DNA of 12,189 bases, taken from NCBI GenBank assembly GCA_015660155.1, contig DQLO01000324.1, positions 1-12,189 on the forward strand. Reading direction: 5' to 3'. This document shows, piece by piece, positions 6,344 to 12,189 of the stretch. The position numbers were made by a program, and so were the translations under genes. The notes beneath the pieces were generated by a model that saw only the letters and a program-made list of their open reading frames with translations, did no database searches and was not told where the DNA came from. Positions within the stretch are counted from its first letter, which is position 1. Each line of letters opens with the position of its first letter. The DNA comes from Verrucomicrobiota bacterium (lineage in GTDB: Bacteria > Verrucomicrobiota > Verrucomicrobiia > Limisphaerales > UBA1100).

Positions 6344-7746
6344 TGAAAAACTTGCTCGCCATTTTTATTCTATTCGCCGGACTGGCTGCCGTCCAAGCCG
6401 CGCCTCGGCCGAATGTGCTTTTTATTGCGGTGGATGATTGGAATGACTGGGTGGGTTGCCTCGGGCACGCGCAGGCGAAGACGCCGAATGTGGATCGCTT
6501 GGCCAAGCGCGGTTTGCTTTTTACCAACGCGCATTGTATTTCGCCGGTTTGCAATCCGTCGCGGGTGGCGGTGTTGACGGGGCTGCGACCGGGGACGACT
6601 GGCGTTTATGAAAATGGCCCGGTGATGCGCAAGGTGGCGTCCAACGTGGTGACGATTCCGCAGCATTTTCGGAAGCACGGTTACGTGGCGCACGGGGGTG
6701 GGAAAATTTTTCACGACGTCACGCCGCATTATGATCCGCTTAGTTTTGATAAATATTTCTGGTGGCATCCGCGCGGGGCATTGGGCAGTGCGCGGCACGG
6801 TTCCCCTTACAGCGTGGAGCCGGATCCCGAGCCAGTGAAGCGTCCGGCGCGGCGCATCACGTCGCTGACCAAACGCAACTTCGACTGGGCCGCGCTTGAC
6901 CGGCCGGAAACTGATTGGCCGGACCGCAAAGTGGCTGATTGGGCCGCTGGTTTTTTGTCCAAAAAACACGAGCAACCATTCTTTTTGGCGGTTGGTTTAT
7001 TTCGTCCGCACGTGCCGTGGTATAATCCGCGCAAATACGTCGAGCAATTTCCGCTGGAGAAAATAAAACTGCCGGCGGTTAAGGAAAACGACCTCGACGA
7101 CCTCGGCCCGTGGGCCAAGGCGCGCGCACACGATCGCAGTTCAAAACACGACAAGGTCGTGGAATTCGGCGAATGGAAACCGGCGGTGCAAGCGTACCTC
7201 GCTTCCATCAGTTTCAGCGACGCGATGCTGGGCCGGGTTTTGGATGCGCTTGATGCGGGACCGAATGCGCGCGACACGGTCATTGTTTTTTGGAGCGACC
7301 ATGGCTATCACCTCGGCGAAAAAGGCCATTGGCACAAGCGCACGCTTTGGGAGCGCAGCACGCGCGTGCCTCTCATCATCGTGGCACCGGGCGTGACGCG
7401 GGCCGGAACGCGTTGCGCGCGTCCGGTGAGTTTGCTCGATCTTTATCCCACGCTCGCCGATTTGTGCGGCTTGCCCGCGCGCGCCGAACTCGAGGGCCAA
7501 AGCCTGCGGCCGCTCCTGAAAAATTCCAAGGCAGAATGGGAACGTCCGGCGGTGATCACGTGGCAAAAGGGCAACCACGCCGTCCGCTCCGAACGCTGGC
7601 GCTACATCCGCTACCGCACGGGCGAGGAGGAACTTTACGATCACAAAACCGATCCAAACGAATGGAACAATTTGGCAAACGACCCCAAACTGGCGGAACT
7701 GCGCAAACAATTGGCGAAGTGGTTGCCAACAAATAAATCAAAATGA
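6340..7746 (+). CDS. Secreted iduronate-2-sulfatase-like sulfatase
   Basis: A 468-residue type I sulfatase, close in layout to the gene just upstream (shared VDD/LDD..NDWVGC, NAHC.SP.C.PSR and SDHG...GEK.HW blocks), so the pair probably arose by duplication. Residues 1-20 form a signal peptide (cleavage after VQA). Metal-binding D32-D33, formylglycine motif CNPSR (71-75), K122 and H125 in GKIFH, and D320-H321 are intact. It ends soon after the standard LYD...DPNEW..LA segment, the usual size for the family. The reading frame is open from 6286, but the upstream part has no signal-peptide character. The start is placed at the ATG at 6340, which forms an ATGA overlap with the previous stop; the adjacent ATG at 6343 is equally possible. 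Its own stop overlaps the next gene by 4 bp, consistent with coupled translation of three successive genes. Substrate: probably a sulfated uronic-acid or related sugar, by family only. Confidence 0.92.
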   Translation: MMKNLLAIFILFAGLAAVQAAPRPNVLFIAVDDWNDWVGCLGHAQAKTPNVDRLAKRGLLFTNAHCISPVCNPSRVAVLTGLRPGTTGVYENGPVMRKVASNVVTIPQHFRKHGYVAHGGGKIFHDVTPHYDPLSFDKYFWWHPRGALGSARHGSPYSVEPDPEPVKRPARRITSLTKRNFDWAALDRPETDWPDRKVADWAAGFLSKKHEQPFFLAVGLFRPHVPWYNPRKYVEQFPLEKIKLPAVKENDLDDLGPWAKARAHDRSSKHDKVVEFGEWKPAVQAYLASISFSDAMLGRVLDALDAGPNARDTVIVFWSDHGYHLGEKGHWHKRTLWERSTRVPLIIVAPGVTRAGTRCARPVSLLDLYPTLADLCGLPARAELEGQSLRPLLKNSKAEWERPAVITWQKGNHAVRSERWRYIRYRTGEEELYDHKTDPNEWNNLANDPKLAELRKQLAKWLPTNKSK

Positions 7747-8912
7747 AAAACAAAACACAAAAGAAAGTTCACTGGACAGCCCTGGCTTTGCTGGCGGCAT
7801 TCTCAATGTCGGCGGCGGAAACGCAGCCGCGCGGTATTACGATTCCAACAATTGATTTGTCGGCGCAGAAGCACCGGCAAATTATTGTCGACCGCGAAAA
7901 AGGACAATATCTCGGACACCCAACGACGGTGCTTTTGGAGGACGGCAAGACGATGCTGTGCGTTTATCCGAAAGGCCACGGGCGCGGCCCGATTGTTTAC
8001 AAGCGCAGCACCGACGGAGGGTTGACGTGGAGCAAGCGACTGCCCACACCGAAAAGCTGGGCGACATCGAAGGAGGTGCCCACGTTGCATCGCGTGATTG
8101 GGCCTGACGGAACCAAGCGTATCATCATGTGGTCGGGACTTTATCCGGCTCGGTTGGCGGTGACCGAGGACGACGGCGCAAAGTGGAGCGAACTCAAACC
8201 CGTCGGCGATTGGGGTGGGATTGTCGTGATGGGATTTGTGGAGGAATTGAAAACCGGCAAGGGCCACTACATGGCGATGTTCCACGACGACGGCCGCTTC
8301 TTCACCAAGGGCGGCACCAAGCCGCGCACGTTCAAGTTGTTCAAAACATTTTCCAAAGATGGCGGGCTGACTTGGTCGTACCCCGAAGTGGTTTATCAAT
8401 CATCCGAAGTTCACCTCTGCGAGCCCGGGTGCATTCGGTCGCCGGACGGAAAAAAACTGGCGGTGCTGCTCCGCGAGAATGCGCGCCGCAAAAACTCGCA
8501 CGTCATCTTCTCCGAGGACGAAGGCAAGACGTGGAGCAAGCCGCGCGAATTACCGCTCTCGCTGACCGGCGACCGGCACACCGGAAAATACAGCGCGGAC
8601 GGTCGGCTGTTCATTAGTTTCCGCTGCCGCTCGCCGAAGCAAAGTGCGAAAGGCCGCCCGTTCGAAGGGGATTGGGTCGGTTGGGTTGGGACGTGGGAAG
8701 ACATCGTCAAGGGACGTGACGGCCAGTATTCCGTCCGACTCAAGGACAACACGAAGGGCTACGACACGACATACCCCGGCGTGGAAATTCTGCCCGACGA
8801 CACGTTCGTTGCCACCACCTACGGGCATTGGGTGAAAGGCGAAGCGCCGTACATTCTGAGCGTTCGTTTCAAACTCAGCGAACTCGATGCGATCGCGAAG
8901 AAGAAAAAGTGA
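7743..8912 (+). CDS. Secreted sialidase-like Asp-box (BNR) repeat protein
   Basis: A 389-residue exported protein with a sialidase-type beta-propeller. Residues 1-25 are a signal peptide (basic N-region, hydrophobic core, SAA cleavage site). Asp-boxes of the form S-x-D-x-G-x-T-W occur at 89-96 (STDGGLTW), 204-211 (SKDGGLTW) and 257-264 (SEDEGKTW), with a degenerate one at 141-148 (TEDDGAKW). Classical sialidases carry an RIP motif whose Arg binds the sialic acid carboxylate. The equivalent place here reads LGHP (57-60), so that Arg is missing. Arginines at 244 (LLREN) and 294-296 (FRCR) could be other triad members. I recall close relatives with this GHPTTVLL segment from planctomycete genomes labelled exo-alpha-sialidase, so the change looks like a family trait rather than damage. 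Function: glycan hydrolysis or binding outside the cytoplasm; true sialidase activity is doubtful. The start overlaps the preceding stop (ATGA). The C-terminus is a Lys-rich tail. Confidence 0.85.
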   Translation: MKNKTQKKVHWTALALLAAFSMSAAETQPRGITIPTIDLSAQKHRQIIVDREKGQYLGHPTTVLLEDGKTMLCVYPKGHGRGPIVYKRSTDGGLTWSKRLPTPKSWATSKEVPTLHRVIGPDGTKRIIMWSGLYPARLAVTEDDGAKWSELKPVGDWGGIVVMGFVEELKTGKGHYMAMFHDDGRFFTKGGTKPRTFKLFKTFSKDGGLTWSYPEVVYQSSEVHLCEPGCIRSPDGKKLAVLLRENARRKNSHVIFSEDEGKTWSKPRELPLSLTGDRHTGKYSADGRLFISFRCRSPKQSAKGRPFEGDWVGWVGTWEDIVKGRDGQYSVRLKDNTKGYDTTYPGVEILPDDTFVATTYGHWVKGEAPYILSVRFKLSELDAIAKKKK

Positions 8913-8920
8913 AACGAGGG

Positions 8921-8997
8921 TTAACCACAGATTGCGCAGAATCACACAGATGAAAACCAACAAAAAAATCTGCGTTAATTGGCGTAATCTGCGGTTT
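8921..8997 (+). repeat. Palindromic repeat, copy A, containing the start codon of the SGNH-sulfatase gene
   Basis: An imperfect inverted repeat that also occurs at 11067-11134. The left outer arm 8923-8937 (AACCACAGATTGCGC) pairs with 8982-8996 over 15 positions, with one A-C mismatch and one G-T wobble. An inner arm 8945-8951 (CACAGAT) pairs with 8968-8974 (ATCTGCG), with one mismatch. The A-rich loop is 8952-8967. The left arm is itself built of roughly 10-bp units of the CRCAGAT type. The ATG at 8950 sits with its A and T in the stem and its G in the loop. The right arm is translated as part of the signal peptide's N-region. The element begins 8 bp after the upstream stop codon. Confidence 0.85.
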
Positions 8998-11058
8998 GGT
9001 TTCTTGGCGGCAGTCTGTGTCGTGTCCGCAGTCACATCGGTTTGCGCTCAAGAACCGGCGCGGCCGTTGACGATAGTTGCGTTCGGCGATTCAACCACTG
9101 CGGTTCGGGGCACGGTGAAGCAGGTTTATGCGGATCGCCTTCCGGCATTATTGAAAGCGCGCGGCATCGAGGCGAAGGTGATTAACGCGGGCGTCGGCGG
9201 CAGTCACACGGGGCGGCTCGCGGACAATGCCCGTCACAAACGACGGCACGCGCTGGATCGCTTGGATGATGCGGTTCGCCACCACAAACCGGACATCGTG
9301 TTGATTCAGTTTGGTTGGAACGATTCGTGGGTGGATTCGGATAACCTGAACGATGCGTCGCGCATTTCGGTTGAAAAATATTCGGCCAACGTGAAACACA
9401 TCGCCAAGACGCTGACCGGCGACGGGGCGCGCGTGATTTTGATGACGCCGAATCGCCCGAACACGTCGGTCGCTGCATGGCGTGTCGCGCGAACGCTGAA
9501 GTACGTCGAGGAGGTGCGGTGGCTCGCGAAATCGGAGGCGTTGCCGCTGGTCGATGTCTGGCGCGAATACGATCGCATCGAGTCAATCAAGGGTCGCAGT
9601 TCCGATGAGTTGTTGCTGGACAGCGTCCATCCCAACGACCAAGGCCACGCGTTGGTCGCGGATTTGTTGAACCGAAAGATCGCGCAAATCACGGCCGGCC
9701 CGAACGTGCTGTTTATTATGGTTGATGATCTTGGCTGGAGCGATGTCGGCTTCAACGGCTCGAAGGTGTACGAGACGCCGAATGTCGATCGGCTTGCGCG
9801 GCAGGGAATGGTCTTGTCGGATTTCTATTCCGGCGGCCCCGTTTGCTCTCCCACGCGGGCCTCGATTATGACCGGCAAGTACACCGCGCGCACCGGCATC
9901 ACGACCTATCTTTTGTCGCCCTCCCGCGACGCCAAGCACCTCCAATCCCATTTGCCGCTTGAGGAATTCACGATTGCCGAGGCGTTCAAAAAAAACGGAT
10001 TCGCTACCGGTTACTTTGGCAAATGGCATCTCGGCTACGAGAACAAATTTTGGGCCGGCAATCAGGGTTTTGATGTGGCCAAGGGCGGCATCGATCTTCC
10101 TTGGGCGTGGACACTTTGTTATCCCGATCTCAAGGCAGCGCCGACGGCAAAAATTTGGCCCAAGCAACACACGCGGTTTTTCAGTCCGTATCATTTGACC
10201 CATCTAAAAAACGGGCCGAAGGATGAATACCTGACCGAGCGCCTGACGAACGAGACGATTGCGTTTATTGAAAAACATCGCGGCGAGCGGTTCTTTGCGT
10301 TCTTGTCGTTTCATACCGTCCATACCCCGCTACAGGCAAAGCCGGAGAAGATTGAAAAATACAAAAAGAAAATTGCCGCGCTGGGGCTGGACGCAAAAAC
10401 CGAAAAGAATCGCCGCGAAAAATCGTTTCAAAACAACGCGGCCTACGCGGCGATGGTTGAGCATATGGACGAGAACGTCGGGCGATTGCTCACGCGGCTC
10501 GACGAACTCAAGCTCAGCGATAACACAATCGTCGTGTGGACGTCCGACAACGGCGGCAAGGGATCGGTCACCTCGAACTTGCCGTTGCGTGGCATGAAAC
10601 ACAATCTTTACGAAGGCGGCATTCGCGTGCCGACGATTGTTCGTTGGCCGGAAAAAATCACCGCCGGCACGAGCAACGCAACTCCGCTAATTAGCAACGA
10701 CTTTTATCCGACGCTGCTGGAGTTGGCCGGTTGCCCCACCGAACCGCAACAGCACGTGGACGGCATCAGTTTCAAAAAAGTGTTGCTCGGCAAAAGTCAA
10801 ACGGTTGAGCGAAGCGCAATCTACTGGCACTACCCGCACAGCCGACAGGAAGCCGCGATTCGCGCCGGACAATACAAACTGCTCCACCGCTTCAAGCAAG
10901 GCCGCGTCGAGCTGTACGACCTAAAGTCCGATCTCGGCGAACGCAGCGACCTCAGCCAACAAAAGCCGGAAGTTGCCAAGCAACTGCTCGCCAAATTAAA
11001 GTCGTGGCAAAAAAACGTGGGCGCAAAATTCCAAGGCGACGCGAAGGAGCAGAAATGA
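8950..11058 (+). CDS. Exported SGNH/GDSL esterase - sulfatase fusion protein
   Basis: A 702-residue bifunctional protein. Residues 1-33 are a signal peptide (Lys-rich start, hydrophobic 17-32, cleavage after VCA; no good lipobox). Residues about 38-243 are an SGNH hydrolase: GDS with nucleophile Ser48, NAGVGG with oxyanion Gly84, GWND with Asn124, and DSVH with Asp224 and His227. Such domains usually deacylate sugars or lipids. Residues about 250-685 are a type I sulfatase: D259-D260, formylglycine motif CSPTR (299-303), GKWH (K358, H360) and D533-N534, ending in a standard LYDL..D..E..DL segment. Fewer than 10 residues separate the domains and the sulfatase has no signal peptide of its own. 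The frame is open from 8887, overlapping the previous gene, but those extra residues are strongly basic. The ATG at 8950 starts a proper signal peptide and is preferred, although no Shine-Dalgarno sequence precedes it and it lies in a palindromic repeat. Inferred role: removal of ester and sulfate groups from the same exported glycan. Confidence 0.9.
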   Translation: MKTNKKICVNWRNLRFGFLAAVCVVSAVTSVCAQEPARPLTIVAFGDSTTAVRGTVKQVYADRLPALLKARGIEAKVINAGVGGSHTGRLADNARHKRRHALDRLDDAVRHHKPDIVLIQFGWNDSWVDSDNLNDASRISVEKYSANVKHIAKTLTGDGARVILMTPNRPNTSVAAWRVARTLKYVEEVRWLAKSEALPLVDVWREYDRIESIKGRSSDELLLDSVHPNDQGHALVADLLNRKIAQITAGPNVLFIMVDDLGWSDVGFNGSKVYETPNVDRLARQGMVLSDFYSGGPVCSPTRASIMTGKYTARTGITTYLLSPSRDAKHLQSHLPLEEFTIAEAFKKNGFATGYFGKWHLGYENKFWAGNQGFDVAKGGIDLPWAWTLCYPDLKAAPTAKIWPKQHTRFFSPYHLTHLKNGPKDEYLTERLTNETIAFIEKHRGERFFAFLSFHTVHTPLQAKPEKIEKYKKKIAALGLDAKTEKNRREKSFQNNAAYAAMVEHMDENVGRLLTRLDELKLSDNTIVVWTSDNGGKGSVTSNLPLRGMKHNLYEGGIRVPTIVRWPEKITAGTSNATPLISNDFYPTLLELAGCPTEPQQHVDGISFKKVLLGKSQTVERSAIYWHYPHSRQEAAIRAGQYKLLHRFKQGRVELYDLKSDLGERSDLSQQKPEVAKQLLAKLKSWQKNVGAKFQGDAKEQK

Positions 11059-11066
11059 AACCGATA

Positions 11067-11134
11067 TTAACCACAGATTACACAGAGCTACGCAGATGAA
11101 ACCCCCAAAAAAAATCTGCGCAAATCTGTGGTTA
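11067..11134 (+). repeat. Palindromic repeat, copy B, containing the start codon of the last sulfatase gene
   Basis: Second copy of the element at 8921-8997. The outer arms 11068-11079 (TAACCACAGATT) and 11123-11134 pair perfectly over 12 bp. The inner arms 11091-11097 (CGCAGAT) and 11114-11120 (ATCTGCG) pair perfectly over 7 bp. The loop 11098-11113 is C- and A-rich. The internal loop is uneven, 11 nt on the left and 2 on the right. Relative to copy A the left arm, start codon and loop align without gaps, and the right arm is 9 nt shorter, so the reading frame is kept. The element again begins 8 bp after the previous stop, and the ATG at 11096 spans the stem/loop border. Confidence 0.87.
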
Positions 11135-12189
11135 GCCCTATCGGTATTCCTGTCGGCGGCAAATGGCTTTGCTGCGGAACGCCCGAATGTGCTGTTTATT
11201 GCCATCGATGATTTGCGGCCGGAGTTGGGGTGTTATGGCGCGGGGCAAATTGTGAGCCCGAACATCGACCGCTTGGCCAAGCGCGGGGTTTTGTTTGAGC
11301 GCGCTTATTGCCAACAACCGCTTTGCAATCCCTCGCGCACGAGCCTCATGACAGGGCTGCGGCCGGAGACGACGGGGGTGACGCATAACCACGCCCACTT
11401 TCGCACGCGCAATCCGGACGTCGTCACATTGCCGCAGTATTTCAAAAATCACGGCTACGAATCGCGCGCTATTGGCAAAATGTATCACGGCGTATTTCCG
11501 AAAGGCGCGAGCAAAACTCCTTGGGATACAATGGGCGATGCACCGTCGTGGTCCGCGCCGGTCATTCGATTTGGGCCGCGCTATTATTATACCGAGTCCG
11601 GCATCGCGCAGGCGAAGGCTTCGTTCGTGCAAAGTTACGGCGCGAAGAATTCCGCGCCGGATGCGTGGACAAAAAAACTCGTTTTCGGCCCAATGACCGA
11701 AGCGCCCGCCGTGCCGGACAATACGCTTTATGACGGCCAAGCCGCCGACGCAGCCATCGCCGCGTTGCGCGAACTCAAGGACAAACCATTCTTCCTCGGC
11801 TTGGGTTTCATCAAACCACACACGCCCTTTGTCGCGCCGAAAAAATATTGGGACATGTACGATCCCAAAAAAATTCAACTCGCCGCGCGTGCCACATTAC
11901 CGAAGGGTTCGCCCACGTTGGCGGGGCACAACTCCGGCGAAGTGCGCCGTTACACCGACCAACCCAAGCGCGACCCCTTCACGGAGGCCAACGCGCGCAA
12001 TCTCCGCCACGGTTATTTTGCGTGCATCAGTTACATCGATGCCCAAGTCGGCCGCGTGCTTGCCGAACTTGATCGGCTTGGTTTGCGCGACAACACCATC
12101 GTGTTGCTTTACGGCGATCACGGTTGGCACTTGGGCGATCACGGGTTGTGGGGCAAAATCACCAACTTCGAAATCGCCGCGCGCGCGCC
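11096..12189 (+). CDS. Secreted iduronate-2-sulfatase-like sulfatase (3' end outside window)
   Basis: The frame is open from the ATG at 11096 to the window edge: 364 complete codons, no stop. Residues 1-26 are a signal peptide (MKPPKKIC start, hydrophobic 11-20, cleavage after GFA), followed by the sulfatase opening ERPNVLFIAIDD with metal-binding D38-D39. The formylglycine motif is CNPSR (77-81); GKMYH supplies K128 and H131; YGDHGW supplies D341-H342. The block order matches iduronate-2-sulfatase-like enzymes and is close to the two at 4676-7746, but with a distinct middle section rich in Tyr and Ala (about 156-230). By comparison with those genes roughly 100-200 C-terminal residues are missing from view. 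The start codon and first residues come from a palindromic repeat, and no Shine-Dalgarno sequence is seen. The gap from the previous stop is 37 bp, so the gene is probably in the same transcript. Substrate unknown. Confidence 0.9.
   Translation, partial: MKPPKKICANLWLALSVFLSAANGFAAERPNVLFIAIDDLRPELGCYGAGQIVSPNIDRLAKRGVLFERAYCQQPLCNPSRTSLMTGLRPETTGVTHNHAHFRTRNPDVVTLPQYFKNHGYESRAIGKMYHGVFPKGASKTPWDTMGDAPSWSAPVIRFGPRYYYTESGIAQAKASFVQSYGAKNSAPDAWTKKLVFGPMTEAPAVPDNTLYDGQAADAAIAALRELKDKPFFLGLGFIKPHTPFVAPKKYWDMYDPKKIQLAARATLPKGSPTLAGHNSGEVRRYTDQPKRDPFTEANARNLRHGYFACISYIDAQVGRVLAELDRLGLRDNTIVLLYGDHGWHLGDHGLWGKITNFEIAARA

Follow-up and report, generated by a model that had tools for sequence, protein, structure and literature searches.

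Palindromic repeats translated in frame within protein genes have been described as Rickettsia palindromic elements (RPEs; PMC2229807, PMC10969869); they are reported to measure 105–146 bp and to lie inside the genes of conserved proteins (PMC2229807). The same source also reports that the Yersinia palindromic sequence, or RU-2, a palindromic miniature inverted-repeat transposable element (MITE), partly forms the signal peptide of the putative exported protein YPO1552 (PMC2229807). Repetitive extragenic palindromes (REPs) are described as short intergenic palindromes with a preference for co-directional and convergent junctions, many of them near or overlapping coding regions (PMC3733652). Here we analyse a palindromic repeat present in two copies on contig DQLO01000324.1 of a Verrucomicrobiota bacterium, the whole analysed stretch of 12,189 nt being called the window. 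Copy 1 stands in front of gene 6 and copy 2 in front of gene 7, and each contains the ATG from which the gene most likely starts. On the sequence comparisons presented below, the best explanation, and one that we consider probable, is that a palindrome of gene junctions was tolerated, and is now used, as code for signal peptides.

Results

Orthologs with and without the repeat

Seven genomes of the genus were compared, the window's genome and six others (G001–G006 being among the labels), in which the window repeat (AGAT) is one of three sister palindrome families. Close orthologs of gene 7 were found in G005 and G006, and a third, in G004, was cut by the contig end before its start. In G005:C21 a single repeat resembling copy 1 lies between a sialidase gene and the sulfatase gene, whereas the gene 7 orthologs G006:C3 and G005:C53 are repeat-free, the upstream stop codon overlapping their GTG start; that of G006 begins MGLVRSSFVAWLLSLFAMVADGWALERPN. 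Gene order agrees around G005:C21 and G006:C3. By our reading, a start downstream of the repeat would leave only about 9 residues (G005:C21) or about 15 residues (gene 6) before the expected cleavage site, and no n-region.

Two further loci, whose orthologs are 81–88% identical overall, allowed the same comparison. In the sulfatase gene G004:C37 a whole copy of the AGAG subfamily is in frame and the upstream stop overlaps the start, whereas the orthologs in G001, G002 and G003 (81–82% identical) are repeat-free and start at an overlapping ATGA; the G002 ortholog reads MIIRLLPTLCFLCGFLNAADKPN, whereas G004:C37 begins at an overlapping GTGA and then reads ...RRFPIFLSVFLCVLCGELGFAADKPN. Likewise, G001:C415 encodes a protein with a signal-peptide-like start, again with the whole repeat in frame and the upstream stop overlapping the start, and its repeat-free ortholog G003:C42 is 86% identical, reading MKKLITITLLGVVWATAAEND (preceded by MALA) where G001:C415 has MVKRFFTTETQRVQRLILSVLSVFLWFNSFAAEND. 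In every such pair, as we read the alignments, the cleavage-site region is retained and the stretch preceding it is altered. The repeat-free orthologs of the three loci (gene 7, G004:C37 and G001:C415) show that an old signal sequence was replaced.

The G004:C35 ortholog of the G001:C415 gene (L297) has an N-region with a different palindrome (CGGACTCGCAGGCTCG...), the same junction thus bearing two different palindromes in two species.

Repeat sequence read as first codons

Judged from the reading frame only, repeat sequence forms the first codons of seven gene loci in the genus, representing at least five events. Three of these loci, gene 6, gene 7 and the gene 7 ortholog in G005, are headed by AGAT copies. 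The sulfatases G005:C17 and G006:C19 owe their cores, LCVLCASVV and LCVLCVSVV, to an AGAG half-copy, and the remaining two loci are G004:C37 and G001:C415. All seven repeat-written N-termini passed a rough signal-peptide rule, compared with 22 of 61 genes that face an untranslated copy with their start (Fisher test, p 0.004 for 6/6 events and p 0.009 for 5/5 events). The repeat-free orthologs likewise read as exported for three of the events.

G005:C17 (L034:1-1493) and G006:C19 (L031:1-1493) are different sulfatases, and both have an AGAT copy directly before the ATG in addition to the core encoded by the AGAG half-copy. At L252 the CGGAT copy of G005:C67 overlaps the called start of a cytosolic-looking gene (MILDPCKSLKSVSPLRQAYRLMHRAHG...), with an alternative ATG beyond the copy. 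In the G005 copies C4, C17c, C21b, C5 and C67 a tail like AAAATGGTTT, with small variants, supplies another ATG at one palindrome end; copy 1 and its G005 relative have a shortened TGGTTT tail. Exact CTCTGTG copies ending in GTG numbered three, in 2 of 286 genomes of the class, and none was seen heading a gene.

Beyond these loci, the frame opened by the ATG at the loop extends for at least 80 codons in 15 of 127 database copies, as against 0 and 8 in the other frames, the 0 being forced by the sequence. A search with the 40 N-terminal residues of gene 6 yielded one protein from three candidates, and this was the same gene; a search with the N-terminus of the LCVLCASVV sulfatase yielded its own record (P0121) and one weak match (E 0.8), both searches reaching proteins of similar length that share several exact 5-residue words. 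These results do not bear out the proposal of an earlier note on the window that the repeat may be a translation-initiation module. In one database copy (L195:1606-2217) the loop ATG opens a frame of 204 amino acids with a signal-peptide-like start (MNPDKIPSAFICVYLLISAVASPTLA) and without a Pfam match.

Relationship of copies 1 and 2

Copies 1 and 2 are also alike upstream, across the preceding stop codons, with 18 of 25 nt identical. Among 278 background gene ends of the genus, none matched the end of gene 6 that well and one matched the end of gene 5, the latter being, by its sequence, the G005 ortholog of gene 5; a match of 18/25 was reached by 198 of 200,000 random pairs. Because the similarity spans the preceding stop codons, copies 1 and 2 are to be regarded as sister copies, so that their identical 37-nt gap reflects one event and is not independent evidence. 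An environmental relative of gene 6 from another assembly, the predicted protein P0001, is 92% identical, begins MKTQKKICVNRRNLWFGL and has the same repeat-encoded start; as it shares this N-terminus, the repeat-headed gene 6 is unlikely to be an assembly artefact. The 3' tails of gene 6 and P0001 differ. No full-length match to gene 6 was found in the other six genomes of the genus, the best reaching about 50% over the sulfatase part.

Hydropathy of the palindrome arms

Complements of polar and basic codons tend to be hydrophobic, and translation of an inverted repeat would therefore be expected to give a basic n-region and then a hydrophobic core. In 79 of the 84 copies examined (see below; five half or degenerate copies were excluded), with three frames read in each direction, the right arm exceeded the left in hydrophobicity in 439 of 474 frames (163/168, 108/138 and 168/168 by subfamily). 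Open whole-copy frames were signal-peptide-like in 44 of 88 cases for AGAG, compared with 251 of 2307 (10.9%) for shuffled sequence and 396 of 1520 for random palindromes of the same composition. Taken with the frequencies for the other two subfamilies (see Discussion), this indicates that palindrome form helps and that AGAG is well suited, while the AGAT repeat of the window is not special by this measure. Right-arm hydropathy suits signal peptides, clearly so only for the AGAG subfamily; in the window, the AGAT repeat would supply the start and the n-region, and the core appears to be mostly host sequence.

Distribution of the repeat family

Pattern searches detected 8 copies in the window's genome (an assembly of 2.15 Mb in 423 contigs, 74% complete), 18 in G005, 1 in G001 and 2 in G006, in agreement with the dispersed repeat family surmised in the earlier note. 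A covariance model built from 21 copies matched in 5 of the 7 genomes and also brought to light two sister subfamilies, whose units are CGGAT and AGAG. For 84 copies, 29 from the patterns and 55 from among the best matches listed by the covariance search, the junctions were examined using gene calls based on a crude codon score. Stop-facing flanks lay within 15 nt in 81 of 102 cases (median 6 nt) and start-facing flanks in 22 of 66 (median 48 nt), and the junctions comprised 44 co-directional, 29 convergent and 11 divergent ones. None of the 84 copies was interior to a gene called by the script, the two whole-copy reading frames described above being our own reading. The repeat family follows gene ends, not starts. 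Spread by insertion at gene starts, as previously suggested, is not supported, because copies closely follow stop codons whether the junction is co-directional or convergent.

Seven of the nine AGAT copies that cover a start or end at most 12 nt from it head sulfatase genes (six by Pfam and one by 91% identity to gene 7), and sulfatases number only 43 to 98 in the four genomes concerned. With all subfamilies considered, however, start-abutting copies head diverse genes, whose N-termini suggest by eye cytosolic enzymes; on the evidence of these 55 additional copies, the idea that start-abutting AGAT copies are sulfatase-specific was dropped.

The consensus of 21 aligned copies ends TTAACC...GGTTAA; each arm is made up of three tandem units of 9–10 nt, and copies span roughly 50–110 nt. 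The family has terminal inverted repeats, a trait of MITEs. No clear target-site duplication was seen by eye in the listed flanks, where diverged signal sequences prevent exact placing of the insertion points; no parent element was found for the family, and the consensus showed no GTAG tag at the palindrome end.

Six Y1 transposase loci occur in three of the seven genomes. A full repeat copy was found at none of the six, a single partial match in L214 lying at a distance of about 1.1 kb, although the incomplete genomes could hide a relevant gene, and in the four loci examined for repeats other palindromes flank the Y1 gene. A link of the family to a Y1/RAYT transposase is hence not supported. 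The palindromes at the G005 loci L214, L216 and L217 belong to other kinds, those of L214 and L217 being similar in part, and several REP families coexist in the G005 genome.

A related pattern also occurs beyond the genus, in at least 117 database stretches, all 117 of which were analysed. By their record titles, the named genomes concerned are those of Cyanobacteria, Acidobacteria, Planctomycetes, Verrucomicrobia, Bacteroidetes, Spirochaetes, Proteobacteria and archaea.

Features of the window

The positions of the genes and repeat copies are given in Table 1. The repeats, their spacings, the in-frame ATGs and the arm difference had been reported in the earlier note and were all confirmed: each repeat begins 8 nt after a stop codon (of gene 5 or gene 6), a gap of 37 nt precedes each ATG, and both ATGs are in frame. 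The copy end lies 48 nt (copy 1) or 39 nt (copy 2) from the ATG. Since this 9-nt difference is downstream of the ATG, the reading frame is kept, as had been noted; the hairpin, on the other hand, does not survive intact, because the deletion takes out one of the three right-arm units and with it part of the copy 2 stem. RNA folding gave −26.9 kcal/mol (z −6.1) for copy 1 and −21.8 kcal/mol (z −7.9) for copy 2, and none of 200 shuffles was as good for either. No Rfam match was found in the window at the gathering score. ACCGATA (11060-11066) and TATCGGT (11139-11145) lengthen the copy 2 palindrome by 7 pairs outside the family consensus.

Table 1. Genes, repeat copies and related features of the window, by position.
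Feature	Position	Strand	Evidence or remark
Gene 5, BNR/sialidase-like	7743..8912	+	PF13088; stop codon precedes copy 1; orthologs in G005 and G006 at the corresponding junction
3' end of gene 5, 18/25 nt in common with 3' end of gene 6	8891..8915	+	Direct repeat; shared segment begins before the stop
Palindrome copy 1, AGAT subfamily, 77 nt	8921..8997	+	Folding, family alignment, covariance model
ATG within copy 1, the likeliest start of gene 6	8950..8952	+	Independent protein P0001 with same N-terminus
Gene 6, 702 aa: signal peptide, SGNH (GDSL-like) domain, sulfatase domain	8950..11058	+	Pfam
3' end of gene 6, partner of 8891-8915	11037..11061	+	18/25 nt match
Palindrome copy 2, AGAT subfamily, 68 nt, right arm one 9-nt unit shorter	11067..11134	+	Folding, family alignment, covariance model
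ATG within copy 2, the likeliest start of gene 7	11096..11098	+	G005:C21 ortholog starts likewise; G006:C3 and G005:C53 repeat-free
Gene 7, sulfatase, cut by contig end	11096..12189	+	PF00884; 'iduronate-sulfatase-like' is the earlier reader's label

Genes 6 and 7 had been called unrelated. They do differ in their N-termini and in the extra SGNH domain of gene 6, but both have a PF00884 sulfatase domain, and gene 6 is 27–28% identical in alignment to gene 7 of the relatives. The domain order in gene 6 is SGNH followed by sulfatase; in the homologs P0002, P0003 and P0024 sulfatase precedes SGNH, and P0024 also has a sialidase domain. Sialidase, sulfatase and SGNH functions neighbour one another in the window operon.

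The lack of a Shine-Dalgarno sequence before the two ATGs is real but uninformative, the motif not being enriched before starts in the genus (7.6%, compared with 6.7% and 7.6% in control zones, for 119 starts taken as the first ATG of long open reading frames). Gating of initiation by hairpin folding, which the earlier note had coupled to this observation, was rejected. A check for compensatory differences between arms showed that the two arms of a copy match no better than arms of different copies, permutations equalling or exceeding the observed match in 4582 of 5000 cases for the outer 11 nt, 4570 for 20 nt and 4900 for 27 nt (24 copies), and two-sided change was seen in 1 of 20 consensus pairs. 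The earlier interpretation as a whole is partly supported.

Discussion

In the explanation that we favour, a dispersed REP/MITE-like palindrome would move and settle between genes, directly after stop codons. Where an operon is tight and the next gene starts on or beside the stop, a landing copy would enter the first codons of that gene, and it would survive where these codons encode a signal peptide, a stretch with loose sequence constraints. As the right arm is complementary to the left and reads more hydrophobic, a palindrome would be favourable as signal-peptide sequence, and tolerance, not benefit, may have kept the copies. In the window, the old start region of gene 7 would have given way to an ancestral copy that landed in the sialidase/sulfatase junction, and a sister copy now heads gene 6, located in the same junction in this lineage. 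The repeat-borne ATGs would then initiate translation and the predicted signal peptides would be functional.

Several points weigh against this explanation. The Fisher contrast is partly circular, because a signal-peptide-like N-terminus was one ground for calling a copy translated; the small set of translated copies was assembled after the data had been seen, and G005:C17 counts in both columns, via its AGAG copy and via its AGAT copy. One wrong event lifts p to 0.035 (5/6) or 0.074 (4/5), and p is 0.017 when the ambiguous copy before the cytosolic-looking gene at L252 is counted. The half-copies were spotted by eye, and a systematic scan would also catch cytosolic genes; the signal-peptide rule was a home-made hydropathy test, not a trained predictor. 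Among open frames, AGAT gave 4 of 34 signal-peptide-like, equal to the shuffled control, and CGGAT 2 of 32, below it. The codon-based caller starts gene 6 far downstream of the repeat and starts the G005 ortholog of gene 7, G006:C19, G004:C37 and G001:C415 downstream of the repeat or late within it; it starts gene 7 at the ATG of the repeat and G005:C17 at the ATG just after the AGAT copy. The open frame is no sign of selection, because it is equally open in the sibling copy G005 C21b, which heads no gene. Finally, no mobility enzyme was tied to the family among the Y1 loci of the genus that were examined.

Three other explanations were considered. The repeats could mainly be recombination sites, homologous recombination between copies having brought gene 6 with its leader into the operon. 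This is possible but doubtful: gene 6 does lie between direct copies and lacks a full-length match in the other genomes, the similarity of the copies continues over the preceding stop codons, and the 3' tail of gene 6 differs in P0001, but the single G005 copy is, by our reading, like copy 1 on both sides and not a hybrid of copies 1 and 2, and this is the only such case. Recombination of this kind is compatible with our preferred explanation as the origin of copy 2.

We think it unlikely that the copies are untranslated 3' elements of the upstream genes, such as terminator or mRNA-stabilising hairpins, with the real starts of genes 6 and 7 downstream and the open frame due to chance. The tight position of the copies behind stop codons, the equally open frame in G005 C21b and the downstream starts preferred by the crude caller for gene 6 and the G005 gene 7 ortholog would agree with such a role. 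Downstream starts, however, leave the short remnants described above, without an n-region, at a place where the repeat-free orthologs have full signal peptides, and at two loci, G004:C37 and G001:C415, the start shares nucleotides with the upstream stop and the reading frame runs through the whole repeat.

That the repeat was domesticated, i.e. selected as a start-codon and export cassette that spread by aiding expression or secretion, perhaps with hairpin-gated initiation, is very improbable in spite of the identical spacings and frames at two genes and the sulfatases behind AGAT copies, since copies 1 and 2 are sisters, compensatory change within copies was not seen, the family follows stop codons, start-abutting copies of all subfamilies head diverse genes, few loop-ATG frames are long and no other protein with the gene 6 N-terminus was found.

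A junction palindrome recruited as signal-peptide code would offer a concrete way, open to testing, for selfish or structural intergenic DNA to turn into coding sequence, via stop/start overlaps and the tolerance of signal peptides, and the repeat-free orthologs in sister genomes allow before-and-after tests. The opposite hydropathy of complementary strands would be a simple reason why palindromes suit this role. We suggest only tentatively that bacteria have in palindromic DNA a general, ready-made supply of signal peptides; if they do, the export signals of secreted enzymes could be rewritten again and again, in many phyla, by palindromes at the junctions of tight operons. Where a repeat provides the first codons, gene callers can put the start in the wrong place, as the script used here did.

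Literature searches with the repeat sequence found no paper on the repeat, and among the papers listed by a further search none described it in these phyla, which is not to say that it is unpublished. In-frame palindromes and a palindrome-derived signal peptide are already known from RPEs and YPO1552. The repeats analysed here resemble RPEs, compared by description, in being palindromes translated in frame in protein genes (at the seven gene loci, by reading frame), but they are shorter copies behind stop codons, translated solely as the beginning of the gene that follows. With the GTAG REP/RAYT system the family shares its intergenic location and junction preference; it differs in having no GTAG end tag, no full copy at Y1 loci and arms of three tandem units. 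The closest precedent in effect is YPO1552 of Yersinia, where the element, of about 168 bp with a 56-aa frame, is described as making a new exported protein (PMC2229807). In the present family, by contrast, the signal sequence of existing exported enzymes seems to have been replaced, repeatedly and by at least two repeat subfamilies, as judged against repeat-free orthologs. The recurrence in two subfamilies, this replacement in existing enzymes, the route through stop/start overlaps and the hydropathy rationale are what the present analysis adds to the known systems.

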